This document shows, piece after piece, positions 13,601 to 48,722 of a stretch of 64,000 nt of DNA. The DNA is from Eublepharis macularius (Eukaryota; Chordata; Lepidosauria; Squamata; Eublepharidae). The number at the start of each line of letters is the position of its first letter. The stretch's first letter is position 1. The notes under the pieces were generated by a model, which did no database searches, was not told where the DNA came from, and was given only the letters and a program-made list of their open reading frames with translations. The stretch spans positions 65,787,028-65,851,027 of the forward strand of contig NC_072793.1 of NCBI RefSeq assembly GCF_028583425.1, given 5' to 3'. The translations under genes were made by a program, and so were the position numbers.

Positions 13601-14340
13601 GGGGTGGGGCCTTACAGGGAGTCCATTTATCTCAATGACCATTTGGTTTGGGGGGGGGGTGCTGTTGAAACAGGAGCCTCTATTTCCCTACTGTGTCTCC
13701 TGACCTCAGCCTCGATTTCTTTTTTGTTAGTCTTCCACAGCAACTGGTTGGCCACTGTGTGAAACACGATGCTGAGCCAGATGGGCCACTGGTCTGCTAC
13801 AGCAGGGCTCTTACATTCTTATGAGGCCCACCTGTGACATCATGTATGGGGCAACTGATTAGTATTATAAAAACTGATCCCATACCCAGCTAAATTACAA
13901 GCCTCTCTATGGAAGTGAAAGATACTCTCATTAAGAACTACTGGAATATTTGGTTGTTCTACAAACAAAATCTTCTGCATGTATAAGAACTAATTCCAAT
14001 CCAAGTGAAATGTGAGAGATATCTGCAACCTGTTTATCCAAGGATAGGGATGGATCCTAAAACACTTCCCCAAATTGTGAGCTTTCTCTGCTTGGAAGTG
14101 CAATTCCATCTAGAACAGGTTGTATATCGATTCCCAAATCAGCTTTTCTCCCAGGTCACAGCTCAAATCATGTATGGATTAAATTTCAAATAGATTGCCA
14201 ACATCTAGCCCTTCAGTGATTCCAGGTACCACCTCCCTGGAGTTATATGGAAAGAAAAATTTTCAGCACACTAGTGAGAGGTCACCCCAAATCTCTGGAT
14301 TGTCTCCTTCAGTGTTTTCATGCAGCTGGTTGGGACCATA
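13601..14340. other. Intergenic, one short dispersed repeat
   Basis: A fragment at about 13745-13812 (CCACTGTGTGAAACACGATG and CCAGATGGGCCACTGGTCTG) is a widespread amniote repeat end, with a second copy at 50870-50945. Otherwise nothing is recognisable. Confidence 0.5.
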
Positions 14341-14600
14341 GAGCCAGTTTGGTGTAGTGGTTAAGAGCACGGGACTCTAATCTGGAGAACTGGGTTTGAT
14401 TTCCCACTCCCCTACTTGAAGCCAGCTGGGTGACCTTGGGTCAGTCACAGCTTCTAGGAGCTCTCTCAGCCCCACCCCACCCCACAGGGTGTTTTGTTGT
14501 GGGGATAATAACATACTCTGAAAACCACTCTGAGTGGGCATTAAGTTGTCCTGAAGGGAGGTATATAAATTGAATGTTGTTATTATGATTTATTGTTATT
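14341..14600 (+). mobile_element. tRNA-derived SINE with ATT-rich tail
   Basis: The head GAGCCAGTTTGGTGTAGTGG followed by TTAAGAGCACGGGACTC is a tRNA-like A box region; the B box-like GGTTTGATT follows. The 3' part contains GGGGATAATAACATACTC and GGGAGGTATATAAATTGAAT, then a TTATT-rich tail. The same family occurs in reverse at 39037-39343 and as diverged copies at 50540 and 62820. Confidence 0.88.
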
Positions 14601-21414: not shown

Positions 21415-22200
21415 CAATTAAATTCTTGTTTCCCCCATCACTCCCTTCTCCCTGCCTTATTGGTCATTGCTGGCTTTCTCTTCCAGACTGCCAGGAGACC
21501 CAATTTGGGTGGAAAGGCAGCATATAAATGTTTTAAATAAAACAAATAAATAAAATTGGCAGATATGAAAAAGAAGGTGGACTTAGTTCTGTTCATCAAA
21601 AAACTGTTGAGAATTTTCAAACAGATGTTCCTAGCCCTTCTCACAGAATGAGTGTTAAATCAATTTAACCTCAGCATGCTTATAAAAACCATTTTACTAG
21701 CCAGATTTGGTGTAAAAATAGTTTTTACACCATAGTTTTTCATAGTTTTTAACTCTATGGTAATTTTTTTAAAACAAGTTTAAAGGTTGCCATTCAGCAA
21801 ATACTTGAGAATACTAACTTTTGAATAACTAGAAAGTGAGTTCTAATTTTTCAAGTAAAATTTGTTTGGTGTATGCAAGACTATAAAACTTGTGTGGTGC
21901 TACCTTTTGGCTAGATGCCTTATTTCTGACTGCACTGTGATATCTGCTTGTTAGAAGAAGGTTATTGAAACACCTTCTGCTGAAGTGGAATCCATGATCT
22001 TAACATCCAGCCTACATTTTTGACTGCGGCCTACTTGAAGTTACTTTATGTTACTTTAACTTTAGAGCTAAAGTACTTTGTACTTTAGAGTTACACCCAT
22101 GAATCCTGTCCCACTAACAAGTTAAAACAGGAGTAGTTGCAAATTCCTCCTTCTGTCTTAATCTAGTGATGGGGAAGTCTTCCTGAACATTTAGTTTCTT

Positions 22201-22362
22201 TTTCTTTTTCTTTTTTGCATAAAATTTTTATTGAGTGAGTATAAATTGCAATTACACATTTTCCATTAATACCCTTATTTCTAGTACCCCCACCCTTTCC
22301 CTCCCCTGCTTTATCTAGGACTTCCAACAGTTTTCCAACCCTCTGTTGAAATCTATTACCTA
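22201..22362 (-). mobile_element. 5'-truncated L1 3' end
   Basis: This short insertion reads, on the minus strand, as the tail of an L1 3' UTR ending in AATAAAAATTTT and an A-rich tail. It shares GTTGGAAAACTGTTGGAAG-type sequence with the full-length L1 at 28654-28672. It is flanked by a 19-bp target duplication, CCTGAACATTTAGTTTCTT, at 22182-22200 and 22363-22381, so it is a clean 5'-truncated retrotransposition event. Confidence 0.9.
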
Positions 22363-23548
22363 CCTGAACATTTAGTTTCTTAAGGTTTTATTTATTTATT
22401 TTCTATTGAGCACCGCATCTGTGGAAAGTTCTTTGATGAGCCTGAACTTGATGATGGTGTACTTATCAAGTACGCCTGACAAGGTTGCTATCATTTCACA
22501 TTGTCCAAACTCCATTTTTGGGGGGTTGGTAAAGGTTAAACAAGTACGTTAAATTCTTAATTTTCTGTGTCTGAACCCTACTTGTCTCTAGACATGGGCA
22601 CGAACAGCATTACGAACAGAAAAAACTAACGAACGACTTCCGGTTTGGGATTCATGGAGGTCTAACGCAGCTCCATTTGCGAAGCTGACCGGACTGCTGT
22701 TTTAAGCGGCCGGCGAGGTGAAAATAACCCGCGGCCGACTGCTCTCAGGCGGAGAGCAGGCAAAGAACGCTCAAGACCCTAGGGTGAGTTAGATCTCGGA
22801 CGAGGGGGGGCTCTATGCAACGGGCCCCCTCCCGATCCTTGAGGTCCCACCTTGCGACGGGTCGGCTACAATCTCTGCGGCAGTTTTGGGGCCAATTCGG
22901 CTGGCATAAGACCTACATACCCAAGCTTCGATTGGGGGAAGAAGTGGAAAGGAGAATTTGAAATCGAAACAGCGATTACAACCCGTGGAAAGTGAAGGGA
23001 AGGTAAAGATCACTATCTTCCGATACGGGACAGATTGATTGAAACAGAGAGGAAAAAAAAAAGTAGATTTTTAAACTGCAACAGACGGGCGAAAAGGAGG
23101 GGAAGTTCCGGCGGGAGTTGTATTTGAAAAGAGACTAAGTTTAAAGAAGTTATTAAAGAAATTGGACTATTGTTTTGAATACCTGTGGCTTTGGAGCTGT
23201 GAGAAAAAGACACCATCGCGAGATCTGCTGTGGGAAGACGGGAGACAGGAAGTGCGTAACAACAATAGAGCGGCTGGGGAGAAGCGGCCCTTGCTGGAGG
23301 GCAGGAAGAAGGGAACCGCCATCTTTGAGAGGGGAAGGGTCGCGGCCTCAGCGGAAAAGGAAGTAGGCCATATTGGATTATAAAATCATAGAGAGACCAT
23401 AGAGAAAAGACGCCCGACATTTTGGACCCTTTAAAATTAATTTATGCAAAAAGACCGGGACATTTGAAATAAAAAAGGTACCAAATTTAACGCCACGGAG
23501 TTAAGGAAGAGAGCGGACTCGTGGGAGCGAGCCAAAGCAAGCCCCACG

Positions 23549-24343
23549 ATGTCAAAGAAAGAGTGGCAATCGGCAATAGAAAACTTGGATAAAAAACTTT
23601 TGGAGGTGATTAAAGAATTTAAAGACATGAAATTGGAGCTGATCAAAGAGGTTAAACAGACAGTAAAATCGGAGCTGTCTGAAGTAAAATCGGAGCTGTC
23701 AGAAGTAAAGAAAGGTATGGAAACAATACAAAGTGAATTACAAGGGACGCAGCAGAGAGTTAAAACAGTGGAAGGAGCGATGGAGAACTTAGCAGATACG
23801 CAACAAACAGAGATGAGGCTGATGAGGGGAAGGATGGCTGTTGCGGAAAGTAGACATATGGAGAAGCAGCTGAGATTTCGCGGTCTGCCGGAATTGGAAG
23901 GAAAGACAGCGCAAGAACAGATGACGGAGGTGTTAGCTGAATACCTGGGGAAGGAGGAGGAGGATGTTGTGGCTATCCTAGATGTGGCATATCGTGTGAA
24001 TTCGAGAATTGCAACCCAGAGGAAAGTACCAAGGGACGTGATTGTACAATTTACAACAAGAAACATGAAAGAGAAGATTGTGACTAAACAATTTCAAGAT
24101 CCATTGGAGATCGATGGCAAGACAATCATTATAATGAAGGAACTACCCAGATCAGTGTTACTAGATCGGAAAAAATATAAAGCGCTAATCCAGATGTTGA
24201 AGGACATGAAAATCAGGTACAGATGGGAGCTCCCAGAGGGTTTGTCCTTCGAATTTGGAGGTGCCAAAAAGCGTATCAGATCTGAGAGGGAGATGGAGCG
24301 ATTTATAAGGGACAATGAAAAAGACTTACCAACAAGATTATGA
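23549..24343 (+). CDS. L1 ORF1 protein (RNA-binding chaperone)
   Basis: This 264-aa protein is encoded in one open frame. Residues about 5-105 are rich in charged heptads and should form the trimerising coiled coil; they include a short duplication (SELSEVK twice, residues 41-54). Residues about 107-190 begin QLRFRGLPE, the typical start of the L1 ORF1 RRM domain, and about 195-264 form the basic C-terminal domain with RKKYKALIQMLKDMKIRY. Mammalian ORF1p is longer (about 338 aa in human), and the difference lies mainly in a shorter coiled coil. It binds L1 RNA and acts as a nucleic-acid chaperone. The stop codon (24341-24343) overlaps the ORF2 start codon. Confidence 0.9.
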   Translation: MSKKEWQSAIENLDKKLLEVIKEFKDMKLELIKEVKQTVKSELSEVKSELSEVKKGMETIQSELQGTQQRVKTVEGAMENLADTQQTEMRLMRGRMAVAESRHMEKQLRFRGLPELEGKTAQEQMTEVLAEYLGKEEEDVVAILDVAYRVNSRIATQRKVPRDVIVQFTTRNMKEKIVTKQFQDPLEIDGKTIIIMKELPRSVLLDRKKYKALIQMLKDMKIRYRWELPEGLSFEFGGAKKRIRSEREMERFIRDNEKDLPTRL

Positions 24344-27300
24344 ATATGGAGTGTAAAGTATTATCTTGGAATGTAAATGGACTAAACTCACCGAATAAGA
24401 GAAAAAATATTTTTCACTGGCTATTAAAACAAAAATGTGACATTGTTTGTTTGCAAGAGACTCATATTTGAAAACAGGATGTAAAATATTTAAAATTGGG
24501 AAAATTGGGCAAGGACTTTGTAGCGGCCTCAAGTAAGAAAAAAAGAGGAGTGGTGTTGTATGTAAAAGAGGAGCTACAACCAAAATTCATAATGAAAGAT
24601 GTGGAAGCCAGATTTGTAGCAGTGGAATGTACTTGGAACTTAAAGAGAGTGTTGGTAGTCGGAATCTATGCACCTAACGGTGCAAAAGAGAGCTTCTTTG
24701 AAGATTTGAGGAAGCATTTAGACGATCTTTCATATGATCAGATAATTCTTGCTGGAGACTTCAATGGTGTGACAGACTTGGAACTGGATAAAAAGACTAC
24801 AATGGCACAAAAGAAAAGAGGACTATTACCAAAGCTCTTTTTTGAGTTGATTCAACAAGAGACTCTTGAAGATGTATGGAGGAGAGAATATCCTAAAAGT
24901 AGACAGTTTACTTTTTATTCTGCAAGGCACTCCACACTATCAAGAATTGACATGATCTGGGCCTCAAAAGATTTGGCGTTATGGACTAAGGATGTAGAAA
25001 TAATGCCGATGGTAGGCTCAGATCACAACCCAATTATGTGGAAATTAGGGAAAAGGAGAAAAAGGAAAGCATGGAGAATAAATGAGGACCTGCTACAGGA
25101 AAAAGAGAATATGGAAATATTGAGAAGAGAGACAAAGTTTTTCATACAATACAACGTGAATAAAGAAGTACCAACTGATAAAGTTTGGGATGCTTATAAG
25201 GCGGTTATAAGGGGCATACTAATGGACTTAAACGGTAGAGCAAGAAAGAAGAAAGAGGAGAAAAGACAAGAGATTGAGGAGAAAATAAAAGCTAAGGAAA
25301 CACAGTTAAAAAAGAGACCAGGGAAAAAGAAATTATATCAGGAAATTAAAATATTGCAAGAACAGCTAACAGCAATGAGTAACAAAGAATTGGAGTGGAA
25401 TCTCAAAAGGCTGAATCAGAAAGCGTTTGAGGGTGCAAATAAACCTGGGAAATACCTGGCATGGCAACTGAAGAAGAGAAGGGAAAAGAAAACAATAAAC
25501 AGAATTTGTGAAGATGACAAAACGTATCTGGAACAGACTACCATTAGTAGAGCCTTTTATAAATTCTACGCTAAATTGTACAACAAGAGAGAAGTAAATA
25601 AAGACTCAATGGCGTCATATCTGGAGAAAATGACACTTCCAGAAATTTCGGACGCTTGGAGAAGTAAATTGAACAGTGAGGTAACGGATGAGGAAATAAG
25701 TAAGGCAATACAATCTGCAAATCTAGGAAAGGCGCCAGGGCCAGACGGACTTACAGCTAAATTTTATAAGACTATGGCCAATGAGCTGGCACCATTCCTG
25801 AAGGAGGTGATCAATGGAGTTCTAAGGGACCAAAGGATCCCAGACACTTGGTCTGAAGCGAACATATCATTGATCCCAAAAGAGGGCCAAGATTTGACTA
25901 ATGTGAAAAATTACAGACCTATATCGTTACTCAACAATGATTATAAAATTTTTGCGAAGATACTGGCGGAGAGACTGAAGGGGTGGCTTTCGGAAGTTAT
26001 AGAGGAGGAACAAGCAGGCTTTCTGCCAGACAGACAAATAAGAGACAATTTAAGGACAGTGATTGATGCTATTGAATATTATGATAAGCGTTGTGATAAA
26101 GAGGTTGGTTTCTTCTTTGTTGACGCTGAAAAGGCATTTGACAATTTAAACTGGGATTTTATGTTTGCCACTATGGAAAAGCTACAATTAGGAGAAAGAT
26201 TCATCAGAGCAATTAAGGAAATTTACAGAGACCAGACTGCAGCAATTGTGGTGAACGATGAATTGACTAAGAAACTGATTATAAGTAAAGGAACAAGACA
26301 AGGTTGCCCGTTGTCTCCACTGTTGTTCATTTTAGTATTGGAGATCCTGATGATACAAATACGACAAGACGAGGAAATTCGAGGAATAAAAATAAAGGAC
26401 TATTCATACAAGGTCAGAGCATTTGCGGATGACATAATGTTAATCGTAGAGGACCCATTGGAGAACATGCCAAAGGTGATAGACAAGATCAAGGAGTTTG
26501 GAGACTTGGCAGGTTTCTATATTAATAAAAAGAAGTCAAAGATATTATGTAAAAATATGACTAAGCAGAAACAACAATTGTTAATGGAAACAACGGACTG
26601 TGAAGTAACAAGTAAGGTGAAATACTTGGGAATTGAACTGACTGCTAAGAATATTGATTTATTCAAGAATAATTATGAAAAACTATGGACTCAGATAGAG
26701 AGAGACTTGATTAAATGGAATAGGCTCAATCTGTCATGGTTGGGTAGGATTGCAGCAGTTAAAATGAATGTGTTACCAAGAGTGATGTTTTTGTTACAGA
26801 CAATACCAATCATCAGAGACTCTAAACAATTCGAAAAATGGCAGAGGAAAATCTCAGACTTTGTATGGGCAGGCAAGAAGCCTCGAGTGAAAATGAAAGT
26901 TTTACAAGATGCAAAGGAAAGAGGCGGAATGCAACTGCCCAATCTGAGACTTTACCATGATGCAATCTGCCTAGTTTGGTTGAAAGAGTGGATGACACTA
27001 AAGAACAAGAAATTATTAGCCCTAGAGGGATACCAAAAAATATTTGGATGGCACGCATACCTATGGTATGACAAAGTAAAGGTCAACTCGATGTTCCTGC
27101 ACCATTTTGTACGGAGAAGTCTATACATAATCTGGAAGAAGTATAGAAATTATCTACAAGAAGGAACTCCTTGGTGGGTGGTTCCATATGAGGTGATAGA
27201 CCCGAGAGCTGTTGATAACGAACGACAATGTTTAACTTACAAAGAAATAACTAAAACTGAAGCAGCTAAACTTAAAATAAAGACGCAAGAGGAGCTATCA

Positions 27301-28101
27301 CCTAATTACGATTGGTTCCAGTATAGACAGGTTAGAGACTTGTATAACTCGGACTCTGTAAAGGGAGGTATACGAACAGAGAATTCGGAACTAGAGCAGA
27401 CCCTTCTTAAAGAGGACAAGAAAAGAATATCCAAGGTATACCAGATACTGTTGAAATGGTATACCGAGGATGAGGCAGTTAAAACACAAATGGTGAAATG
27501 GGCTATAAATTTTAATAAAGAAATAACAATGGAGGCATGGGAATACTTGTGGAAGACTACAATGAAGACAACGACATGTACAAATATCAAAGAGAACATC
27601 TACAAAATGATCTATCGTTGGTACATGACGCCAAAGAAGATTGTGCTAGGGAATTTGAACACTTCTAATAAATGCTGGAAATGTAGGAAGCATGAGGGTT
27701 CCCTCTACCATATGTGGTGGTCGTGTGAGGTAGCTAGGCAGTACTGGGGGGTAATAATAAGAGAAATGAGTGAAATTTTACAATTTCAAATCAATAAGAA
27801 CCCAGAACTCCTGCTACTGAACTTGGGAATGGAGGGAATTCCAGCTCATCACAGGACACTGATATTTTACATGACGGCAGCAGCTAGACTTTTGTATGCG
27901 CAAAAATGGAAAGTACAAGAAGTGCCAACTATCGAAGATTGGATCTACAAATTGCTGTATATGGCTGAAATGGACAAGATGACAAGAAAACTGAGAAATC
28001 TGGACTCAGGGCAGTTTAACACAGACTGGGAGAAGCTGAAACAATATTTGGAGAAGAAATGGGAGGTGGGAGGAAAACTGTGGCAGTTTGAGAACTACTG
28101 A
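24340..28101 (+). CDS. L1 ORF2 protein (endonuclease and reverse transcriptase), one stop codon
   Basis: The frame from ATG 24340 gives 1253 codons before the final stop, with one internal TGA at 24469-24471 (codon 44); from 24496 it is open for 1201 codons. The start reads MNMECKVLSWNVNGLNSPNK, the usual start of the APE-type endonuclease, followed by QETHI just before the stop, AGDFN, and SDHNP at residues 227-231. The reverse transcriptase has KAPGPDGL, NYRPISLLN, GTRQGCPLSPLLF and the catalytic FADD at 695-698. The C terminus has a CCHC motif at C1112, C1115, H1124 and C1129. The premature TGA removes most of the endonuclease from the full-length product; a downstream ATG at 24496 remains open but would lack the N-terminal catalytic residues. 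Confidence 0.93.
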
Positions 28102-29222
28102 AGTATAATAAAATGTAGAGGGGGGGTGACTTTACCGGGGGGGAGAAGAGATAAATGTGAATTTATAAGCAGTTAGATTAACAGACTGACATATATATAG
28201 ATATATATAGGTTAATTAATAGAATATTGATAGAAAATAATTAACTATAAGGATTAAATATAAGGATTGAGTAACCAATAATATTTTCTTTCTTTGACAA
28301 GATTTGTACAATGCACCAAACTGAATGTCTGAAGGTATAGACGAGTCAAATTGATTGACTATGTGATGAGAGTTACAGAGAATTATTATAAAAAGACAGA
28401 ATGAGTAATATATAGACAATAAGTCAAATTGTTTGATTGAAGTGAATGTAAGATTTATACGGTTTATGATATATAGAAATATTTAAAAAATGGAAATAAG
28501 GATAAATTGTTTATCTAAGATGGAAACAAAGACTTACAGTTTGGGTATATAATATTAAAAATAGTTAAGGATGTACTGCTTAGAATAATGGAGAATATAT
28601 TTCTGTTCTAGATAGAGGAATCTAATAGAAGTAAGGGAAAAGGGACAAAGTGTTGGAAAACTGTTGGAAGTCAAAAAAAGGGGGGGAAAGGGAGGGGGTT
28701 AGAAATTGAAAACTGGGGAAAATTGAATGTATATGTAAAAATAATGGACTCTAACCCAATAAAAAATTTTTCAAAAAAAAAAAAAAAGAAAAAACTAACC
28801 AACAGGCCACTCGGCTGCTCACGAACGGGCCGTTCGTGAGGCGCCATTCCAGCCGAACAGGTGGTCGTCGCAAGCCTTGTTTGTTGCGCTCAGCTGCCGT
28901 TCAGGAAGCTAGACACTCAGGCACCTTCAATCAATTGCCTCGGCAACGGAGGGAGGGACTGCCTGAACTCTGTCTGCATTCCCTCTGTCGCCACGGACAC
29001 CCCAATCAAAGCCCAACATAGCTTGATTGGCAGGTCTTCCTTCCAAGCATGGAGCTGCAAATTGGTTACAATCGGTAATGTGGGAGCAGACACCAGGGGG
29101 GAGGGAGGGAGGAGGGGGGTGTTCTGTGGCCATGGGAACTCCAATCTCATCCCTGCAAACCCTGTTAGGCAGTTCTGACTGCAAACCACAGACCTCCTGC
29201 ATTTCTCAATGAGACCTCTGCT

Positions 29223-29230
29223 TATAAAAG
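29223..29230 (+). promoter_or_regulatory. TATA box of the hAT element
   Basis: TATAAAAG sits about 550 bp upstream of the BED ORF. The surrounding block (29100-29260) is conserved, in inverted orientation, in both 1-kb relatives at 46.6 kb and 48.3 kb, where a TATA-like motif is also kept. A pyrimidine-rich acceptor (TCCTTAATTCTAG, ending 29760) precedes the ORF, so a spliced 5' UTR is plausible. Confidence 0.55.
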
Positions 29231-29379
29231 GGCACTAAGCTCCCAGTTCTGGATTTCACTTTCAGCAAGTAGTGGAGTGGGACAGAGCTGTTGATAGCCT
29301 ATTGGGAGAGAGAGAGGGAGAGTGCATTGGAGTTGGGCTTTTTTCTGTGTGTGGTAGGTGGGATAGGAAACTATCCCCT

Positions 29380-29735
29380 CTGGTTCCAGGGCTGCTGCCA
29401 GGCCCTGGGGACAAACTCAGTGGGCACCTCGGCTGAGGACTCACCATGATTATTACTGCCTAATCTGATCAGGCCTCTGGGAGTGCTGGGCTAGGGCTCT
29501 AGCCCCAGCCTCCAGTTCCAGGGCTGCTGCCAGGCTCTGGGGCCAAGCTCAGTGGGCACCTCGGCTGAGGGCTCACCTTGACTATTATTATTATTAGTAT
29601 CAGTGCCTGATCTGGTGGTCAGGCTTCTGGGTGTGCTGGGATAGGGCTCGAGCTCCAGCCTCTGGTTCCAGGGCTGCTGCCAGGCTCTGGGCCAAGCTGT
29701 GTGGGCACCTCAGCTGAGGGCTCACAGTGTTCTCT
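29380..29735 (+). repeat. Three tandem units of 130-150 bp in the hAT
   Basis: A unit beginning with TTCCAGGGCTGCTGCCAGG recurs at about 29383, 29513 and 29663. Each copy continues through GTGGGCACCTCGGCTGAGG and an ATT-rich spacer. The array lies between the TATA box and the probable splice acceptor at 29760, so it would be in the 5' UTR or its intron. Confidence 0.8.
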
Positions 29736-29772
29736 CCTTTTCTGTCCTCCTTAATTCTAGTTTGGTGGCACA

Positions 29773-30618
29773 ATGAGTTTTCATGTTGTGGTGGTCACCA
29801 CGGGTGGTCGTGGGGGGAAGTGCAAAGGTAGTCCTCCTGGTTTCCTCGTGGCAAGCAGTACTGGGTGTGGCTCGGAGGCAGCAGAGAGTACTCCCGCTCC
29901 CCCAGATTCACCTGTGGGGGCTGTGGAAGAGGCGAAAGAGGTCTTTCCGCTGAGGGGAGAGGATCTCTCTCAACATTTTGAGGAGGAGGTGGGTGATGGA
30001 TCCCTGGAGGAATGGTTTGTGTTTTATGAAGCATCCCTCCTGTCCCCATCCCAAACTCTCGGTGGTGTCCCTGCCTGCAGTCCACCCCTCACTCCGTCAT
30101 CCATGGCCAGCTCCGCAGCGCAGCCTGTAACCATTTGTCCTCCTTCCCCTGGGACAGTTAGTGGTCCATGTTTCAATGCCTCCGTAGGGAGGCACTTTCG
30201 GGCCCTTCCTAATGACCCCCGTGTGGTGCGGTGCCGTGCCTGTGATGTCCTGGTGCGCAGGAGCAAAAACCCGAAGCAGCTGTCATCGACGGCCCTGAGT
30301 AGGCACCTGAAGATGCACCACCCGAGCCTGTGGTCTCCGTCCTTGCCCAGTGAAACATCCATTGGGGGGAGAAAGGGGGTGACCAGTTCTTCTGAGTGGG
30401 GATCAGTGGGAGGGTCACCGGAATCCACCCCAAGCAAGAATCCTTGCCCTGAGGGTCACTGGAATCCACCCCAAGGAAGAATCCTTGCCCTGAGGATGAC
30501 GCTGGTGGGAGCGGAGCACTCAGGCAGGCTGCGCTCGTGGAGCAACAGCTCAGGAGCTGTTGCACGTGTAGTTGAGCCGCACGGTGGCCCTATCCATTGC
30601 AAACGCTGTGCTCTCTGA
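29773..30618 (+). CDS. BED zinc-finger protein of the hAT element
   Basis: This 281-codon open frame starts 13 bp after a strong splice acceptor. Residues about 141-185 form a BED-type zinc finger: HFRALPNDPRVVRCRACDVL with C154 and C157, then ALSRHLKMHHP with H178 and H182/H183. BED fingers are the usual N-terminal DNA-binding domain of hAT transposases. The N-terminal 140 residues are low-complexity (Gly, Ser, Pro, Glu), and the 90 residues after the finger resemble nothing I know. No transposase catalytic core follows; the downstream DNA is tandem repeats. It may be a truncated transposase exon or a stand-alone DNA-binding protein of the element. The assignment as BED is firm; expression is unknown. 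Confidence 0.7.
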   Translation: MSFHVVVVTTGGRGGKCKGSPPGFLVASSTGCGSEAAESTPAPPDSPVGAVEEAKEVFPLRGEDLSQHFEEEVGDGSLEEWFVFYEASLLSPSQTLGGVPACSPPLTPSSMASSAAQPVTICPPSPGTVSGPCFNASVGRHFRALPNDPRVVRCRACDVLVRRSKNPKQLSSTALSRHLKMHHPSLWSPSLPSETSIGGRKGVTSSSEWGSVGGSPESTPSKNPCPEGHWNPPQGRILALRMTLVGAEHSGRLRSWSNSSGAVARVVEPHGGPIHCKRCAL

Positions 30619-31700
30619 GCAGGGGGGAATGGGTCCCTCGACTCATGTCCTTTCTGCAAAGGCAGGAAGGTGGCCGATGTCAGCTGCCGCTGCTGCCCCA
30701 TTTCTTTCTCTCCCTCTCTGGAGCCACTCTGACCTGTCCAAGTAACCTCTCCTGTCCTGTCCATCCCCTCCTTTCTGCAAAGACAGGAAGATGGGTGATG
30801 CTGGCAGCAGTCTCCTTTGGCCAATTGTGCAACACTCAGGAGCTGTTGCACATGTAGTTGAGCCACATGGTGCCCCGATCCGTTGCGACCACTGTGCCAT
30901 CTGAGCAGGGGGGAATGGGTCCCTCGACTACTGTCCTTTCTGCAAAAGCAGTAAAGGCTCTCAGTAGTGAGTAGTGCCTGCTCAGGTTAGGTGTCTGAGT
31001 GGTGGGTAACCGCACTAGCCCCCCTCATTTCTCAGGGCTGCTTCCACTTTAACCTTTCCTAGCGACCTCTCCTGCCCTTTCTCTCCCATCCTTTCCGCAA
31101 AGGCAGGAAGGTGGTTCATGTCTGCACGTTTCATCATCACTCACACGGCCCCCATTTCTCCGTCTACAAACCCTTTGGAGACCTCTGTTGTCCAGTCCAT
31201 CCCATCCTTTCCGCAAAAGCAGGAAGGCAGTTGGTGTCTGGTGGTGCTGTCCAAACTGTTATGAGTAGTGCCCATACTGCCTGCACAGGTGAGGTGTATC
31301 GGAGCGGCGTGGAACTGCTCTGGCCTCCTCATTTCTCGGGGCTGCTGGTCCCTTTTTCTACCTCTCCCTCTGTGGAACCACTCTGACCGTTATGAACGAC
31401 CTCTCCTGTCCTGCCCATCCCCTTCTTTCCACGAAGGCAGGACGGCGGGTCATGTCAGCCGCCGCTTCACAAGAGACTATCATGTTACTGTTGCCTCCTT
31501 GGTCACGAGGGACAGCTCAGCTGCGATTGCTCAGCCGATTGTACCGTATAGGGACACAGCACGGTTGCACAGCATGGTGGCTCCCCTGTCAACCAGACTG
31601 ACTGGAGCCCTTTGAAGCAGGAGGGAATGTGTCCTGCGACTCCTGTCCTTTCTGCAAAGGCAGGAAGGTGGGCGATGGCAGCTGCCGCCGCCGCCCTATT
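30590..31700 (+). repeat. Degenerate tandem repeat block in the hAT
   Basis: Blocks built around a motif like CTTTCTGCAAAGGCAGGAAG recur at about 30650, 30770, 30935, 31090, 31207, 31425 and 31655. Longer units starting AGCAGGGGGGAATG appear at about 30618, 30903 and 31617. The spacing is irregular (roughly 110-290 bp), so this is an eroded array. It directly follows the BED ORF. Confidence 0.65.
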
Positions 31701-31779
31701 TCTTCCTCTCCCTCTCTGGGACCCCTCTGACCCCTCCCATCTTCCTCTCGCTTGGGAGCTTTCCACTTCCCGATCCATA

Positions 31780-32815
31780 CCTCTCCCTCTCAGGTACTGC
31801 CACAAGTCCCTTCCCAACCACTTGCACTGCCCCATCCCCTCCTTTCCGTGATGGCAGGGAGGTACAAGATGCCAGCAGCCACTGATTCGGGGTCTTCCGG
31901 GCCCTTTCACAGGATCTTCCAGGTACATCTCGTCACCTTGGCCGGATCCCCTTATTCCCCCTGTCTTTGACCACTTCGTGTTCCCTCTTTCCTCCTCTCC
32001 CTCTCAGGTACTTCCATGAGTCCCTTCCCAACCACTTGCACCGCTCCGTCCCCTCCTTTCCGTGATGGCAGGGAGGTGGTTGATGCCAGCAGCTGCTGAC
32101 AGATCGGAGTCTTCCAGGCTCTGTCACAGGATCTTCCAGGTACAGCTCATCGCCATGACTGGAACCCCTTGGTCCCCCTCTCCCTGACCTCTTTGTGTCC
32201 CCTCCTTCCCTCTCCCTCTCAGGTACTGCCACGACCCTTTTCCACCACTTCCACTGCCCCGTCCCCTCCTTTCTGTGATGGCAGTGAGGTGGTTGATGCC
32301 AGCAGCTGCTGACGGATTGGGGTTTTCCAGGCCCTCTTGTAGGATCTTCAAGGTACTGCTCGTCACCGTGGCTGGAACCCCTTGGTCCTCCTCTCCCTGA
32401 CCACTTCGTGTTCCCTTTCCTCCTCTCCCTCTCAGGTACTGCCACAAGTCCCTTCCCAACCACTTGCACCACCCCGTCCCCTCCTTTCCGTGATGGCAGG
32501 GAGTGGTTGATGCCAGCAGCTGCTGAGCTTCCTGTTCCTTCTCGCAGGATCTTCCAGGCATGGCTTGTCACTGTGGCCGGAAACCCTTGGTCCCCCTCTC
32601 CCTGACCATTTCGTGTTCCCTCTTTCCTCCTCTCAGGTACTGCCACGACCCTTCCCCACCACTTGCACTGCCCCATCCCCTCCTTTCCATGACGGCAGGG
32701 AGGTGGTTGATGCCAGAAGCCACTGAACCTCCCGTTCCTTCTTGCAGGATCTTCCAGGTATGGCTCGTCGCTGTGGCTGGAACCCCTTGGTCCCCCTCTC
32801 CCTGACCACCTGGCG
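31780..32815 (+). repeat. Five tandem units of about 214 bp in the hAT
   Basis: CAGGTACTGCCAC-type starts occur at 31791, 32005, 32220, 32433 and 32634, giving steps of 214, 215, 213 and 201 bp. Each unit holds CTCCTTTCCGTGATGGCAGG, GATGCCAGCAGC and GATCTTCCAGGTA. The units look like repeated exons: a pyrimidine tract ending CTCAG on one side and CCAGGTA on the other, about 130 bp apart. Confidence 0.85.
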
Positions 32816-33450
32816 GCTGCAGTCATCAACCACCTTGCTGCGTATGCAGATACTTTGTCCACCTCTGACCCGGAGGCCTGGTGGGTGGGCACATGGGGTT
32901 GCCAACAGCGAGGGGCCAGACCCCCCACTCCCAAGAGGGGAGGTGGCCTGCCACTGCCTCCCCGAGCCCGCCAGGCCCAGCGGCTGCAGTCATCAACCAC
33001 CTTGCTGCATGTGGATCATTTATCCGCATCCGATTCGGAGGCCTAGCAGGTGGGCACATGGGGGGTGCTGCCGGCGAGCAGCCAGACCCCCTGCCCCCAA
33101 GAGGGGAGGTGGCCCACCACCGCCTCCCCGAGAATGCCAGGCCCAGCAGCTGCAGTCATCACCCACCTTGCTGTGTAAGCAGATAAGTGTCCGCCTCCGA
33201 CCCAGAGGCCTGGTGGGTGGGCACATGGGGGTCCCTCCGGCAAGTGGCCAGACCCCCCACCCCCAAGAGGTGAGGTGGCCATCCACTGCCTCCCTGAGCC
33301 CACCAGGCCCAGTGGTCACAGTCATCAACCACCTTGCTGTGTGTGCAGATACTTTGCTGTCTCCGACCCGGAGGCCTGGCGGGTGGGCACATGAGGGGTG
33401 CCGCTGGCCAGCAGCCAGACCCCCTGCCCCTGAGAGGGGAGGTGGCCCAC
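32815..33450 (+). repeat. Four tandem units of about 166 bp in the hAT
   Basis: A unit beginning with CTGCAGTCATCAACCACC-like sequence recurs at about 32816, 32982, 33148 and 33313. Each copy includes GAGGCCTGGTGGGTGGGCAC and AAGAGGGGAGGTGGCC. It is highly GC-rich and adjoins the 214-bp array. Confidence 0.85.
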
Positions 33451-33792
33451 CTTCAGGACCACCGCACGGGGCCAAAGTGAACTTTGGAGGGTGGCTCCAT
33501 TTGTGTTGAATTGGAGTTTCCTGGGGGCAGCAAATTTTGGAATGTATAACTCTGAGATCCATATTGCAATCTTGACCAAACTTGGGTGATGGCTGGAGAA
33601 GAGCCTGCTGCACATTCCCTGTGAATATGGGCTCCCTAACTGCTAAGGGGGCCGCTCTGTCACCAACGAACCCCAGACACCAAACACGTTCATTAATGGG
33701 TCATGTTCGGTTCCATTCATCTGTTCGTGTTCATCATCAGGAACGAACAAAGAACAGCCTGTTCATTTTTTTCTTGTTTGTGCCTATGTCTA

Positions 33793-34481
33793 TTCGTGAT
33801 GCCCCATCCTAAACGAACAGGTGGTCGTTGCGAGCCTCATTCGTTGCCTTCAGCAGCCGTTCGTCAAGCTAGACAGTCTGGCACCTGCAATCAATTCCCT
33901 TGGCAACCGGAGGCAGGGACTGAACTCTGTCTGAACTCCTTCTGCCTTTCCTTCTGGCTTTAACCCTTCAAAGTACTTCCAGCAGAAAGTCCCGTTTTTG
34001 CCAATGTGAAGAGAAAATAACAGCCAACAGGGAGACCGTGGATCATGCCTTTCCCGGGGTGCAATCTCTCTGAAACTTGGGGGATCTTCAGAGGACATTG
34101 AGGACTATGTCCCCTGCAAATTTGGTGGGTATTGGACATTGGGATGGTCAGTTGGTAACCCCTCAAAGTAGCTGCCAGCAGACACTGCTGTTTTTGCCAG
34201 GATAGGGCCCTTTAAACTATCGGCTGGCAGGCTGGGGGGAATCCCCCCCTGCTGCCTGCCAGCTGATAGTTTAAAGGGATCTTTAAAGGGCCAGGTAAGT
34301 GGGAGGGGGGCTAAGTGGGGTGGTTGGGGGTGGGGGTGTTTCTGGCCCCCATGAAGAACGAAGAATGAATATGTCCAGGAACAGTTCATGTTCTTCCATG
34401 TTCATTGTTCATTGTTTGTGGTTGGCAAGGAAGGACAAACAAGGTGTTTGGGTTCCCTCCCCCCGTTTGTGCCCATGTCTA
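33793..34481 (+). mobile_element. Outer hAT copy, right-hand part
   Basis: A second hAT 3' end, TTTGTGCCTATGTCTA, finishes at 33792, followed by TTCGTGAT. The sequence from 33793 onward (ACGAACAGGTGGTCGTTGCG...) is homologous to 28833-28990, so DNA of the same family is present twice. This segment is best read as the remainder of an older copy into which the BED-bearing copy inserted. It contains a GC-rich stem-loop at 34208-34278 with 25-bp arms. Confidence 0.7.
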
Positions 34482-34489
34482 CTTGTCTC

Positions 34490-36205
34490 ACATGGGAAGA
34501 CAGTGTATTTGAATCTCTGAGCAGATGGCTGTCCATGGCCATAGCAATCATTGTATTCTGAAAGTGATTTGTGCCTCTCACTCTGATTCCCTCTCCTTCA
34601 AAGGATCCTGTCAACCAAATAGCTGTACTGCTCTGAAGAGAAAGCCATTTTGCTGAGTTGTCTGAACTGCAATCCTCCCCAGCAAGACATAATGAATATT
34701 TCATCGGTTTAGAAGTGAGGGGCAGTTTAGGTTTTTTAAAAAGGTGGAATTCCAGAACGGGATATCATTCTCTCTCTTTCTGTTGAATTTTACCAGATAG
34801 TGCATGAGGAAAATTTTGGGGTCCTGTTTGGAATTATATCCAGGTCAAGTACTTTATTTTTCTCCCTTCATTCAGCATTTTCTATTGTATGCAATGATAC
34901 TTTAAAATTCTTTACAGTAATAATATAATACTTCATTTAATGAGGGTTCTGTACTAGATTGCATCCATGTTTTATAGTTTTTGGAAAGGGATTTCTTCCA
35001 AATCAGCTCCTGAAAGCAAAATACATCTACTTCTGCGTGGTACAATTGTTCCAGGGTCTCAAAAAGATTTTTTTAAAGAAGATTTGTATATCTACAAATG
35101 TCTACATCCCTGATATAATTAAAGATGGATGGGCTGCAGCAAGTTTATTTATTATTTTTGTTATTCAGAGTCCACCTTTATCACTGAAACTCAAGCCGGA
35201 TTAAACAGTATCAATCAATATGATCAATGGCTGGGAAATTCAATATATAATACAATAGGCTATGGTTTGCAGAAATTTGAAAACAAGATACTGAAGGCTT
35301 GAAATTAGCATTTTAATAATATCCATGGATCTAAACCAGAAACCTTAAAGGCAGCAAAAAAGACAATTTCAGGTTCCTTTTTGGTAAGGTATAGTGGAAC
35401 CCTGTTCCCTAACTTAACATTTACTCACCCACTTTCCTTTACAGCAACTGTATCTTTGATTATTATGAGGTGTAAATATAAATTGCCCAATTCTTGCTGG
35501 TGTTGGGAAGTCTCCTCCCACCCCGATGTATTGAGAAGCAAGAATTGGAAGCTTGTTATGAAGCTTCCTGCCTCCCCTTCCCCCAAATTTGACATGGTTC
35601 TACTACCTTCAACCCAATCCTATGCATGTTTATTCAAAAGTATGTTTGGCAGTATAGTACTACTCACTCCCAAGGAAATATCCCTAGGATTACAGCAGCC
35701 TTGGTCTTTTCTTTTGGTATACAGCCTAGAATGTTTTGAGCTTGTTGCTCATCTCTTCTTATTCTTTGGTGGTCTGCTGCTTGCTCTTTTAGAAAATTTG
35801 CCTTTGAGATGACATAGTACACTTTGGCTCCCAAATCATTATTAAGATTGTAGGTACTTCTAGTTTGTAATGAACCCAGTGACTGTGAAAGTCATGTGTG
35901 CACACATCTGAATGTGTATTTCCACTGGTTATAAATTAAGTTTATAAAGGCAACACAATTATGCCTTATATAAATCAATTCATTCATTATTTGCTTGAGA
36001 AATGTCCCTTTTCACCACAGCAATAGTTTTTTCTCATGAGGCTCTATCAATATTTAATATACAGGTATCCTCTTATAGAGTAATGTGAGATGCTCAACTG
36101 AACGTTTGAATTATACATTGAGCAGGTGAATGTGAGCAGTGTTTTTGTAAGTCCAAAGTCATCATTGAGCTAATTTCTGGACAGCATTGTGAACAGCCCA
36201 TACCT
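34490..36205. other. Region upstream of GRXCR2
   Basis: AT-rich DNA with a palindromic-repeat copy at 35606-35695 and a LINE-tail-like stretch near 35140-35220. The GRXCR2 promoter should lie here, but no TATA box, CpG island or conserved block could be singled out. Confidence 0.45.
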
Positions 36206-36547
36206 ATGGATGAGCTTCAGAAGAAACTGAACCAGAGACATGATGCGAGACCCCGCAAAGTGAGATTCAAAATCTCCTCTGCATACAGTGGTCGAGTCTT
36301 AAAGCAGGTATATGAAGATGGACAGGAACTTGAAATCCCACAGGAAGAATATCCTCACAGTCTTCGACATCGGAGCTTTGAACCCAGAGACCATTTGTTT
36401 GGTATCAGAGAAGCCCAAGAACCAAGGCTTTGCCCACCAGCTAAACTGAATGCTCAGAGGATCAGTGTATTCAGAGAAGGGAGCAAGTATACCCTCACAA
36501 GTAGCCCTTCCCTCTTAAATGAGTACCAGGCAAATGAGAACCGTGTG
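36206..36547 (+). CDS. GRXCR2: GRXCR2 coding exon 1
   Basis: This exon encodes residues 1-114 of glutaredoxin and cysteine-rich domain-containing protein 2. The sequence has the family signature KPRKVRFKISS-type block (here RPRKVRFKISSAYSGRVLKQ), then DGQELEIPQEEYPHS and AQRISVFREG, matching the mammalian protein closely. The start codon at 36206 gives MDELQKKLNQ, equivalent to the human MEDPEKKLNQ start. The exon closes in phase 0 at 36547 with a strong GTAAGT donor. In mammals GRXCR2 localises to the base of stereocilia in inner-ear hair cells, where it helps organise taperin and bundle morphology, and mutations cause deafness. No promoter motif could be assigned upstream. Confidence 0.96.
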
Positions 36548-37654
36548 GTAAGTAATGTTTGATCTTAGTTCAATAGATTCAGCTATGATCAGTGTTCAAG
36601 TTTATAATAGGAGAGTTTTAACCAAGTTCAATTCACCATCTGTAATAGCTTCCAAATCTGTAGGTTCAGTTTTTAAGTCATATTTACCAGCTGGCTTCAC
36701 AGCACCTTTCTCAACTGGCATATGTGAACAATATTGAGTCAAATGTAGGTGTAAAAAATGGTAGGCGATACACTGCAGTACTAATTACTTTTTGCAAATA
36801 CATGGGTGCTGAGGACTGAAAATGTTATCAATTCATTGTGGTGGTTAACATCTACATTAGACCTTGCCCAGAACCATTTCATGGAATCAAAATGTTTATG
36901 CGCATTTCAGATTAAATATTTCAATGTACACTATGCTTAAATCAAGTCAAACACAGCCCACCATTTCGTTGCCTATCTGAATCTGCAAAAAAGGAATGAC
37001 CATTAATCTAGAAATCCACAATCCAAAACTGGTGGCTTGCATTCTGCTTACTGGGTTATGAATTGTTTAAGCCTACTGTATACGATCAACCTTACATTCA
37101 AAATGAGAGATATGGTAGGCTGAAACAGCTTAAAGTCTACAAATGTTTCAAAATGTAACATTTTCCATTCTGTGATGTTTAGATAAAGATCTTCTACTTC
37201 GTAATATGAAGCACAAGTTGAATAAAGCTACACAACACCTAGAAAAGAGACAAAGGAAATAGGACAGCTGTGTAAATGTTCTGCAGTAGGGTAATAGGCA
37301 CACCGTTAACTTTAAAATCAGTAGCAAAGAAGAGAATGCCAGGATTTATGAAACAGTTGATCCAGGCATTTTTTATTGTTGAAAGTGAACTCCAGAAAGG
37401 CAGGGACAACCTGAAAAGTTCTGGAGCGTTTTTTCATCAAGGACCTCAAGCATTTTGCAAAACACAAATAAATTAAAAAACAATAATACCATTGCTGTCC
37501 TGTGACCACAGTGGAGCGTGTTTTGATGTTTATTTGCATATATGGAAACTAAGGTATCTTGTAAGTGTCGATACAGTGGTGGGAGAAAAAGGGCTAGGTA
37601 AGGAGAAGGGACTGCAGACATCTGCAGGCTGTTGCCATTTCTGGTTCTTCTTCC

Positions 37655-39067: not shown

Positions 39068-39107
<40 letters not shown>

Positions 39108-40835
39108 TCCATTTATATACCTCCCTTCAGGACAACTTAATGCTCACTCAGAGAGGTTTACAAAGTATGTTATTATTATCCCCACAACAATCACTCTGTG
39201 AAATGGGTGGGGCTGAGAGAACTCTGAGAGACCTGTGACTGACCCAAGGTCACCCAAGGCTTCAAATGGAGGACTGGGGAATCAAACCCGGTTCATCAGA
39301 TTAGAGTCCAGCCACTCTTAACCACTACACCATGCTGGCTCTCAGTTGTGTGTCCACTCCTAAAGAAACCTACTCTGGCCCCAGGAGAGTTGAATTAACT
39401 ACAGTCCAGTCTCAAATGTACCATTCCTGAGCAAAGTGATTTTGCTGGGTAACTTCCAGGAATCCTGAATGAAGCGGAATGTTTGGGTCCATTTCAATCT
39501 GGTTCAGGCCTGGTTATTGGACTGAAATGGCCTTGGTCGCCCTGGTGGATGACCTGCACCAGGAGATGGACAGAGGGAGAGCATCCCTGTTAATTCTCCT
39601 GGATCTCTCAGCAGCTTTTAATACCATTGAACATAGTACCCCTCTAGACCGCCTTTTGAGATTGGGACTTGAAGGATTTTGTGGTGGTTTCAGTCTTGCT
39701 TTGAAGATAGAGTATGGTGCTGGGGACTGCTGCTCCATCCCTTGGCCTCTGGCTTAGGAGGTCCTGCAAGATTCTGTCATGTCCCCCATTCTTTTAAACA
39801 TCTACATAAAACCATTGGGAAATGTTATCCAGAGATCTGGGCAGAGTCATCACCAATATGTGGATGCTACTCAGCTCTATCTCACATTTTCAGCAGATCC
39901 GAGAGAGGCTGTGAACAGGTGCCTGGAGGCAGTTTTGGGGTGGATGAGGGCTAACAAGCTGAAACTTAATCCCAACAAAACTGAGATGCTACTGGTAGGG
40001 AAAGGGTTGACTCAGGAATGGGAATATCTCTTGTTCTGTTTTATAGCTTGGGAGTGCTGCTGGACCTGGGATTCCTGATGGATAAACAGGTAGTAGCAAT
40101 GACCAGGGGTACCTTTCACCAGCTCCAGCTGGTAAGCCAGCTGCTGAGCTTCCTGGGTGGGAAAGATCTTGCCACTGTGGTGCATGTCCTGGTAACATCC
40201 ATTCTAGATGATTGCAATGCACTTTATGTGAATGTGAGGTTGCCACTGAAGACTGTGCAGAAGCTTCAGTTGTTACGAATGCTGCAGCCAAAACCCACTC
40301 GAGTGGATTTTAGGAAGAATATAAGTCCAGTCTTGTTCCATCTGCACTTGCTCCCAATTTGCTTCCGGGTTCAATTCAAGGTGCTGGCATTGATCTTTAA
40401 AGTGCTATGCTCTTGGGGCCAGCATACCTTAAGGATCACCTTTTCCCATATGAACCTACTAATCAACTCTGGTCATCTTCAGAGATCTTGCTTTGGGTGC
40501 CCCTGTCATGTGAGGATAGACAGGTGGCAACCTGAGCAAGGGGTTTTCTCAAGTTGCGGTGCCAAAACTTTGGAACTTCCTCCCCAGGGAGATTTGCCTG
40601 TCTCCCTCTGTCATTGCCACTGTCCACCAGTGAGTAAAGACTTTTATGTTTTGTTTGGTATACTGAGATGCTCTCCTCCCTGGCTATGTGTGTGTTTATA
40701 TGTCAATATTCTTTACTGTATTTATTATTGTATTTACTGTATTACTGTATTTATATATCTAATTTCCTGTTTTTCACTGCCTTATTTTGGGGTTGAAAGG
40801 TTTAATATAAATATTTTAGATAAATAAAGTAACTG
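37655..40835 (+). mobile_element. Decayed L2 LINE in GRXCR2 intron 1
   Basis: Recognisable pieces include the endonuclease-like start (LLNARSVTDQ-type, about 37705), ALVALVDDLHQEMDRG followed by LLILLDLSAAFNTIEH (about 39535-39630), and ANKLKLNPNKTEMLLVGKG (about 39950-40005) of the reverse transcriptase, then a 3' end near 40800 with an AAATATTTTAGATAAATAAA tail. Frames are broken repeatedly, so it is inactive. A SINE with an AAC tail is inserted at 39037-39343. Confidence 0.85.
39037..39343 (-). mobile_element. tRNA-derived SINE with (GTT)n tail inserted in L2
   Basis: This is the reverse complement of the SINE at 14341, including GGTATATAAATG and the head ending at about 39343. Its tail appears as an (AAC)n tract at 39037-39107 on the plus strand. 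It splits the L2 in GRXCR2 intron 1. Confidence 0.88.
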
Positions 40836-45736: not shown

Positions 45737-47180
45737 GATGGCGCCTTGCTAGCACTTGAGTTTGTTGGTGGGACTTCGGCACAGGGACTTTGTATCAGAT
45801 GTCTGATGGGAGTTTTGTACCTCCCAGATGCACACTGGCCCTACTCTGCTTGGGATCATTGAGCATGGGAAGAAGCTGCATCATTCTTTTCCCTTGCATT
45901 GTTTACACATCTTCAAAACATCCTGTGAGCATCCTGTGAGCTCTGTTATGAAAATTACGTATGGCCTTGTAAGTTATGTGATTCTGCAACAGCACCAATA
46001 GCAGCTCCAAGGGACAGTTTGAGGATGAGAAAAAGGCCTATGGGGGCGCTAAAGCTGCATCTTCCTGTGTGCCCTAGTAGCAAGTAGAGATGAGCATGAA
46101 ATGGGAAAAACCAAAACGAGCATTTCATGTTTCGTCACATTCCATGAATCATGAACTTTCACGAATTTGTCCCATTTTGTGAAATTATTCATTAGTTTCA
46201 TGATTCGTCAGGGCACTTCTATGGCCCCCTTCATACTCAAAGATACCAAACTCATAGGGAGACTTCAGCAAGCTCTCCTCCACCCACCTCACTCAACAAG
46301 CCAGCAAAAACAAATGCTCTAAATAAGAATATAAGCAAAGAAAATTAAAGGAAAAAAAAGGTAGGCCCCAGTCAAGCTAGGCCCCAGAGCCAGGCAATGC
46401 CCGGAGACTGGGTTTGGGTGGGGTGGAGGAAAGAAGGCACCCAATGACCTTCCCAGCAAGGACAAGAGCTGAAATAAGAAAGAGGCTTTTCAGTCTCTTT
46501 TAAAGCAGCAGCAAATCCAGCCAAAAGCTCCCAATTCCACTCTCCCACTCCAAATCCCAGCAACAGGTCCTCCCTCTCCCTCTGTCTACTGGAACTGAAA
46601 AACATGAGGCAGAGAGCTGTGCCTTATATAAGAAATGCTCACATAGAGCAGAACAAGAGGTCTCTGGTTGGCAGACAGACCTGCCTAACAGGGTTTGGAG
46701 GGATGAGATTGGTGTTCCCATTGCTAGAGAAGGCCCATCTCCTCAGTTGCCTAGGGAATTAACCCCCATGCTCCTTGCTGTATAGGGCAGAATGGAAGCT
46801 CTCCAGTTGGCAGAAAGAGCTGCCTATCAAGGTTATGTAGGCTAAGATTGGGGTTTCCAATGGCAACAAAAGGTCTGCAGACGTTCCAGGCCTATGTTGC
46901 ATAGGGAATCAATGGATCGGCGCCAGCCTGTCTGGCATCATGAATCATTCACGAATCGAACTAATCAGTCCCAAAAGTTGTGAATTTCATGAAAATCGCT
47001 GCCCCACGAAACATGTTTTGTGAAACACGAATTGGCCCAATTCGTCACAAAATTTGATTCGTATTTTGATTCGTGCCCATGTCTAGTAGCAAGCAGAAAA
47101 GGGCTGGCATGCATCTGGGAGGCACAAATTTCCCATCACATGAATTCAGAAAGGCCTTGCATTGTCCACCAACAAGCAAG
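45737..47180. repeat. Inverted-repeat element split by a hAT insertion
   Basis: The left arm (about 45757-45853, with TACCTCCCAGATGCACACTG) and the right arm (about 47094-47180, with CATGCATCTGGGAGGCAC) are reverse complements at roughly 75-80%. The 1-kb hAT at 46085-47085 lies between them. The exact ends and superfamily are unclear. Confidence 0.5.
46085..47085 (-). mobile_element. hAT non-autonomous copy, 1.0 kb (GRXCR2 intron 2)
   Basis: The ends TAGAGATGAGCATGAA and TTCGTGCCCATGTCTA are inverted repeats related to the 22.6-34.5 kb element. A perfect 8-bp duplication GTAGCAAG flanks it at 46077-46084 and 47086-47093. Relative to the large element it is inverted and keeps mainly the promoter-proximal region (TATA-like motif at about 46624-46631 read on the minus strand). 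No coding capacity remains. Confidence 0.92.
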
Positions 47181-47730: not shown

Positions 47731-48722
47731 TAGACATGGGCATGAAACGGAAAAAGCCCCAAACGAGAGTTTCATGTTTCATCATGACTCATGAATTGCG
47801 AATCACGAAACTTCACGAAATTGACACGTTTGCTGAAATGATTCGTTAGTTTTGTGATTCATCAGAATCCAGGGCATTTCAATGGCCCCCTTCATACCCA
47901 GAGATGCCAAACTTGCAGGAAGACTTCACCAGGGAGAGGCCCTAAACCAAAACCAAAGGAAGCAGCAAGAGTGTGAACCCTCAAAAGAGCAGAGAAAGAA
48001 TTGAGAAGAAACAAAGACAAGCAAATAAAAAAAGGAGAGGCCTAGGCCCCAGAGCCAGGATAAGGCCTGAGACTAGGGAGGGTGGGGTGGAGGAAAAAAG
48101 GCACCCTCACCCATAGACCTTCCCACAGAAAGGCCAAGAGCTGGAAATAAGAGACTTCTTTCAGTCTCTTTAAAGCAGCAGCAGTAGCCAAAAGCACAAT
48201 CCCAAATCCTTCCATACGCTCTCCCACTCCAATCCCAGCAATAGGTCCTCCTCCCTCTCCCTCTGTCTACTGGGACTGAAACACGAGGTAGAGAGAGGTG
48301 CCTTTTATAAAAAACACTGACATAGAGCAGAACAGGAGGTCTGTGGTCAGCTGACAGACCTGCCTAACAGGGTTTGGCGGGATGAGATTGGTGTGCTCAT
48401 GGCTACAGAAGGCCCACCTCCTTGGTTGCCTAGGGAATTGACCCCCAGCTCCTGGCTGTATAGGGCAGAATGGAAGCTCTCTAGATGGCTAGGAGAGCTG
48501 CCAATCAAGGGTAAGTGGGCTATGACTGGGGTTTCCAATGGCAACAAAAGGTCTGGGCCCATTGCTGCCTAGGGAATCAATGGATCGGTGCCAGCCTGTC
48601 TGCAATTACAAATCGTTCACAAAGCTAATGAAACAGGCCAAAAAGTCGTGTGTTTTGTGACACATGAAACTGCATGTTTCATGATAAAATTTGCTTCGTA
48701 TTTTGATTTGTGTCCATGTCTA
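47731..48722 (-). mobile_element. hAT non-autonomous copy, 1.0 kb (GRXCR2 intron 2)
   Basis: The ends TAGACATGGGCATGAA and TTTGTGTCCATGTCTA mark this copy, flanked by 8-bp duplications CTGTGAGC (47723-47730) and CTGTGAGG (48723-48730), which differ by one base. It is the same orientation and structure as the copy at 46085, with a TATAAAAGG-type motif in reverse at about 48302-48310. The more diverged terminal repeats suggest that it is older than the neighbour. Confidence 0.9.

Follow-up and report, generated by a model that had tools for sequence, protein, structure and literature searches.

A probable compound, non-autonomous hAT transposon with a BED-finger reading frame, internal repeat arrays and a later L1 insertion

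A block of about 11.9 kb in the genome of Eublepharis macularius, lying within the 64-kb stretch of DNA that was analysed as a whole (the window), raises the question of whether it is one hAT transposon with an unusual cargo or the remains of more than one. The preliminary description had treated it as a single 11.9-kb element with a nested young L1, carrying a promoter, a BED-finger ORF and four kinds of tandem array, and had suggested a mobile family moved with the help of another transposase. We consider it likely that the block is a compound, non-autonomous hAT structure, in which one element (A), having lost its catalytic core, became nested in a related element (B) and later received an L1 insertion. 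The features on which this reading draws are collected in Table 1.

Table 1. Positions of the hAT, L1 and repeat features within the window
Feature	Position	Strand	Remarks
Outer 8-bp duplication	22581-22588 and 34482-34489		CTTGTCTC
Element A	22589-33792	+	hAT DNA 5035 bp, interrupted by the L1; probably a separate unit
Left terminal inverted repeat of A	22589-22605	+	outer left end, TAGACATGGGCACGAAC
L1 target-site duplication	22618-22630 and 28787-28799		AGAAAAAACTAAC, 13 bp
L1	22631-28786	+	about full length, 6.16 kb
Promoter and leader stretch	29060-29420	+	can be aligned to C1 and C2; TTATAAAAGGGCAC, near 29225, holds a TATA-like box
Leader unit	29377-29725	+	three copies, 132- and ~150-bp spacing
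BED-finger ORF	29773-30618	+	281 aa from the first ATG; stop-to-stop frame from 29761
41-bp repeat	30410-30495	+	2.1 copies, within the BED ORF; TRF
Degenerate repeats	30620-31779	+	26-bp motif in + orientation, 6 sites
213-bp array	31780-32809	+	4.9 copies; motif in + orientation, 5 sites; TRF
166-bp array	32813-33451	+	3.8 copies; motif in - orientation, 4 sites; TRF
Internal right terminal repeat	33776-33792	-	GTTTGTGCCTATGTCTA, right end of A; 1 mismatch in 17
Putative inner target-site duplication	33793-33800		TTCGTGAT, surviving copy, directly behind the internal end
Element B, right 689 bp	33793-34481	+	about the first 75 bp probably missing, judged from the left end of A
Right terminal repeat of B	34465-34481	-	outer right end, TAGACATGGGCACAAAC
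C1, 1.0-kb family copy	46085-47085	-	duplication GTAGCAAG on both sides, perfect
C2, 1.0-kb family copy	47731-48722	-	duplication CTGTGAGC/CTGTGAGG, 7/8

Outer ends, internal end and the case for two elements

The outer boundaries had been placed correctly. The 8-bp duplication is perfect at both outer flanks, and the outer terminal repeats are 17 bp each and alike at 16 of the 17 positions. Such features are those of hAT elements, which duplicate 8 bp of target (a duplication is also seen, perfect, around the shorter copy C1 and, at 7 of 8 positions, around C2) and carry short terminal inverted repeats, given as 5-27 bp in the available part of PMC3517528. The outer ends and their duplications are those of a completed insertion. 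Between them lie 5724 bp of hAT DNA (5035 bp in A and 689 bp in B), in agreement with the earlier figure of about 5.7 kb.

Even perfect duplications at the outer flanks are no proof that a block is one element, which is a caution for annotation in general. The internal right-hand terminal repeat speaks against a single 11.9-kb element and marks the block as probably compound. This internal end has 1 mismatch in 17, whereas in 100 resampled versions of the region the best match always had 3 to 6 mismatches. Scanning the 64-kb window with the first 13 bases of the terminal repeat, allowing up to 2 mismatches, returned 8 sites, six of which are hAT ends (22589, 34469, the internal end at 33780, 47073, 47731 and 48710). 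The other two, at 48393 and 54504, have 2 mismatches each and were taken as chance. The outer left end of C1 (46085), which by eye differs from the left repeat of A at 4 of 17 positions, was missed by the 13-base scan.

Similarity to the left end of A starts at the first base after the internal end. Here 33793-33944 is 80% identical (156 columns) to the left-end segment of A at 28833-28987 on the + strand, and the repeated segment corresponds to the left end of A from about position 75 onward. A right end followed at once by related left-end sequence is the pattern expected if A had inserted into B and the left tip of B had later been lost. Since the inner duplication has no left copy, the nesting is read from one side only. 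The 11.9-kb block is best read as element A with the right 689 bp of the related element B fused on.

In the history that we propose, A would be an internally deleted hAT element that kept its ends, promoter, leader and BED-finger part and lost its catalytic core, with repeat arrays of about 2.8 kb occupying the lost interior. A would then have landed in B, a short relative, and duplicated TTCGTGAT on insertion. Either of two routes could have removed the left tip of B: a transposase may have paired the left end of A with the right end of B and moved the pair (macrotransposition), or the two left ends, adjacent and alike, may have recombined. The outcome would be one block bounded by CTTGTCTC, into which the L1 of about full length would have inserted later, 42 bp inside the left end. 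Movement would have depended on a hAT transposase encoded elsewhere in the genome. The nesting, the loss of the tip of B, the helper transposase and the origin of the BED ORF as a transposase remnant are the parts of this history that we infer.

It is unlikely that the block is instead one true hAT family of 11.9 kb (5.7 kb without the L1), in which the internal end and the repeated left segment are standard and which amplifies whole. The perfect outer duplication and the matching outer ends would suit such a family, and a compound, once sound at both of its outer ends, might in principle be mobile as a unit. However, an internal end with a single mismatch, followed directly by left-end sequence, is a signature of fusion, and neither the arrays nor the part of B that is unlike A have a match in C1 or C2. 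We give slightly less weight still to the idea that the internal end and the repeated segment stem from faulty gap repair or template switching after an excision rather than from an insertion. Repair of hAT excision gaps scrambles element interiors, and the survival of the inner duplication on one side only would fit with it; but the repeated segment, being only 80% identical to that of A itself, was probably not copied from A, and B runs on for 537 bp with no match in A (E up to 0.01). If the nesting of A in B is right, the block is a legible record of two fused hAT elements, with the ends of different elements bounding one unit. Units bounded in this way are best known from maize Ac/Ds.

Coding capacity, promoter and repeat arrays of element A

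The BED-finger ORF of the preliminary description is present. With this ORF (29761-30618) as query, Pfam places zf-BED at residues 144-188 of the stop-to-stop frame with 22.9 bits (E 8.5e-5), above its threshold of 20.6 bits; with the whole hAT-region frame as query, the finger reaches 18.6 bits and falls short of that threshold. As had been noted, there is no recognisable hAT core: Pfam returned no RNase H-like core with hAT dimerisation domain in the six frames of 28789-34481 at E up to 10. Of what marks an autonomous hAT element, then, the BED finger is seen (with the ORF as query) and the catalytic core is not.

Searches for relatives of the BED protein covered collections none of which are animal genomes. 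The ORF had no match among solved structures or in NCBIfam (E up to 1 in both), and the finger alone matched a serine acetyltransferase structure at E 1.7, which was taken as chance. For the BED region, viral_contigs gave 23 pattern matches and no confirmed relative. Within the window, tblastn with the ORF returned the ORF itself and 24 residues in the neighbouring repeat at 30830-30901 (E 3.4e-5). Neither C1 nor C2 holds a match to the ORF beyond a 17-residue one in C1 (46435-46485, E 0.58), which lies outside the finger and was taken as chance. Apart from zf-BED, the six-frame Pfam search gave a single match, to CXCL16 in another frame near 30.5-30.7 kb (E 0.00042, 21.0 versus 27 bits), which is below the cut-off and was taken as composition-driven.

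Stop-free runs of 285 codons in 28801-30640 and of 360 codons in 30641-33460 were reached in 11 and 12 of 1000 resampled sequences, respectively. Long open stretches being only modestly unusual here, an open frame by itself says little, and what speaks for the BED ORF is its Pfam match together with its position behind the promoter. By eye, a polypyrimidine tract and a TAG before 29761 suggest a putative intron in the leader.

Transposases of the hAT superfamily usually carry a BED finger at their N-terminus. Most simply, this finger would be the N-terminal end of the family's own transposase, the rest of which has been lost. With regard to the origin of the ORF only, and compatibly with the nesting, A may instead have captured an exon of a host BED gene together with GC-rich repeats. 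No transposase family was matched after the BED finger, as capture would have it; against this, the ORF follows the family's shared promoter and leader, at the place where a transposase is expected to start, and a BED finger is usual there, so that we regard capture as improbable. It is very improbable that A is a self-contained regulatory parasite whose BED-only protein, expressed from the promoter of A itself, competes with the full transposase of the family, the 15-site array serving as a landing or titration site for that protein or for a host factor, although if this were true, a catalytically dead element would control the movement of its relatives.

The promoter had been counted as cargo. 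A TATA-bearing leader is indeed present, but it is family sequence, common to C1 and C2. The promoter region of A is 80% identical to that of C1 over 123 columns and 84% identical to that of C2 over 90, and the TATA-like box of A, TTATAAAAGGGCAC, corresponds to TTATATAAGGCAC and TTATAAAAGGCAC in the family copies. The leader unit matches a stretch of C1 with a score of 38, which none of 1000 resampled sequences attains; its match in C2 is weaker (score 29, attained by 1 of 1000). The leader array may be an expansion in place.

Against the four kinds of tandem array reported before, TRF found three arrays in the hAT DNA, and the leader holds a triplicated unit; however, much of 30.6-33.5 kb looks like a single motif lineage in two orientations. 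A 26-bp motif (8 or fewer mismatches) occurs 11 times in forward orientation at 30661-32694 and 4 times in reverse at 32817-33316, and is absent elsewhere in the 64 kb; the motif was picked post hoc from the repeats, and the count is descriptive. A single old array lineage, inverted in its final stretch, probably makes up much of 30.6-33.5 kb; the 41-bp repeat and the array in the leader do not belong to it. The 213-bp units are 81-87% identical to each other and the 166-bp units 78-87%; therefore the arrays are not recent. In C1, C2 and B the best matches to the motif have 11, 12 and 11 mismatches of 26, respectively.

Two further ideas about the arrays were rejected. They are not coding sequence, despite a 360-codon stop-free stretch on the minus strand, since the copy spacings (214, 213, 215 and 199, and 166/167) are not all multiples of three and break any frame. 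The motif was also not taken to be copied from the BED ORF or the sequence before it, for which the best match has 9 mismatches of 26, matched or bettered in 42 of 200 resampled sequences. A dead hAT element can keep its promoter and a DNA-binding exon while arrays fill the place of the catalytic core, as known from this one locus.

Family copies, grouping and known systems

C1 and C2 are 73% identical, have the same orientation and lie 645 bp apart. Their right-hand terminal repeats are TAGACATGGGCACGAAT and TAGACATGGACACAAAT, respectively, and they share their ends with A, in reverse orientation. With their own 8-bp duplications, they bear out the earlier suggestion of a mobile family, but not that of an array-bearing form that amplifies, as none of C1, C2 and B was seen to carry the motif. 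Judged on these 2 other copies in the window, the evidence leans toward the array-bearing form being a one-off rearranged copy, the outcome that the preliminary description had named as refuting its proposal. The larger element, though unusual-looking, is probably an ordinary relic. A non-autonomous hAT element moved by a transposase made elsewhere, on the other hand, is supported by the ends, the duplications, the lack of a recognisable core and the shorter copies C1 and C2.

The target-site duplications of the Ac group follow the consensus nTnnnnAn. By eye, T is at position 2 in 4/4 of the duplications here and A at position 7 in 2/4. The Buster consensus is nnnTAnnn (PMC3517528, in the part available), and Buster membership was rejected, this pattern being found at 0/4 sites (CTTGTCTC, GTAGCAAG, CTGTGAGC/G and the putative TTCGTGAT). 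As to length, A without the L1 (5035 bp) exceeds the 4 kb below which hAT elements typically, though not by definition, fall according to the same source, and B, C1 and C2 are 0.7-1.0 kb.

Two subterminal motifs, both chosen after looking, are unevenly distributed among the ends. GAACA was seen 6 times in the right 200 bp of A (0.73 expected), 4 times at the right end of B (0.53) and once in the left 200 bp of A (0.48), with no site at any of the four ends of C1 and C2. ACGAA was seen 6 times at the right end of C1 (0.46 expected) and once at that of C2 (0.18); both ends of C1 show enrichment for it, which is weaker or lacking at the right ends of C2 and B.

The 17-base left terminal repeat had 3 exact matches in viral_contigs, which were taken as chance in so large a collection. 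In the literature, the terminal repeat sequence led to no hAT description, judged by titles and abstract openings, and there was no description of this hAT family among the matches listed (titles and abstracts, mostly of non-subscription papers). The family may well have been catalogued already.

Closest in kind are the maize Ds2 and Ds-l3 elements and the macrotransposons. Ds2 is a non-autonomous hAT element in which the Ac end regions are kept and filler has replaced the deleted interior, and Ds-l3 carries fragments of the transposase gene (PMC3260210, in the part available). In contrast to these, the filler here consists of repeat arrays built on one motif, and the DNA-binding part and the promoter are kept. 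According to the same part of that source, none of the Ds-l elements tested responded to Ac, and nesting of DNA transposons inside Ds is rarer than nesting of LTR retrotransposons, with one Ds-l4 found within a Ds-l3. Given this precedent, the present structure holds some interest without being a novel type. In maize Ac macrotransposons, different hAT elements contribute the ends that work as a pair, an 8-bp duplication flanks the entire unit, and such structures excise and re-insert (PMC9910405, in the part available), whereas here the second element is nested, only its right part is left, and the two would have moved jointly.

C1, C2 and B resemble the Drosophila hAT MITE Mar, which is about 0.6 kb long and has short terminal repeats and 8-bp duplications. 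However, the duplications of Mar, as far as the available text of PMC3517528 goes, are of the Buster type nnnTAnnn, which is found here in 0/4, and C1 and C2 are 1.0 kb long and have kept a promoter. Tetris of Drosophila virilis, a non-autonomous foldback element, has internal tandem repeats of about 220 bp, like the array-bearing A, but its repeats lie within the terminal inverted repeats (PMC4079207, in the part available), whereas here they lie in the interior of a short-ended hAT element.

The L1 insertion and other features of the window

The L1 lies between two copies of AGAAAAAACTAAC inside hAT DNA, and must therefore have inserted after the hAT DNA was in place; its insertion point is 42 bp inside the left tip of A. 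The ORF1 frame is open to 24343, and its domain match, Transposase_22, is just below the cut-off (21.2 versus 22.4 bits). The ORF2 frame is open over 24472-28101 (1209 codons) and has a Pfam reverse transcriptase match at E 7.9e-39. The observed/expected CpG ratio is 0.61 in the L1, far higher than in the flanks (0.12 and 0.15) and also higher than in the hAT parts (0.25-0.43), which is in keeping with a young insertion. The nested young L1 of the preliminary description thus stands as an insertion with a 13-bp duplication and a young look, but ORF2 is interrupted: a stop codon at 24469-24471 cuts off an upstream part that, by eye, is the start of ORF2, and this L1 copy is therefore probably not competent. 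To the left of the hAT DNA, 22191-22346 is about 72% identical, reversed, to the 3' end of the L1 (28645-28798), and is perhaps an old, truncated L1 tail.

Within B, 34208-34278 is an inverted repeat with 32-nt arms 7 nt apart that are 88% complementary, and 34180-34300 as single-stranded DNA is predicted to fold far better than its shuffles (z -6.6; 0/200).

Elsewhere in the window, a 1.5-kb tandem array at 57279-58747 has a 61-bp unit (20.3 copies with 74% matches for 57279-58507), with TRF periods of 20 as well; four ORFs in or after it had no Pfam match (E up to 0.01). To the right of the hAT DNA, a 146-codon open frame at 36122-36562 has nothing above the Pfam cut-off and matches Toll-like receptor 7 chains weakly (E 0.0085). 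Among several dispersed repeats in the window is one of about 245 bp, found at 14340-14584 and 39098-39342, its two copies being 84% identical and in opposite orientations.
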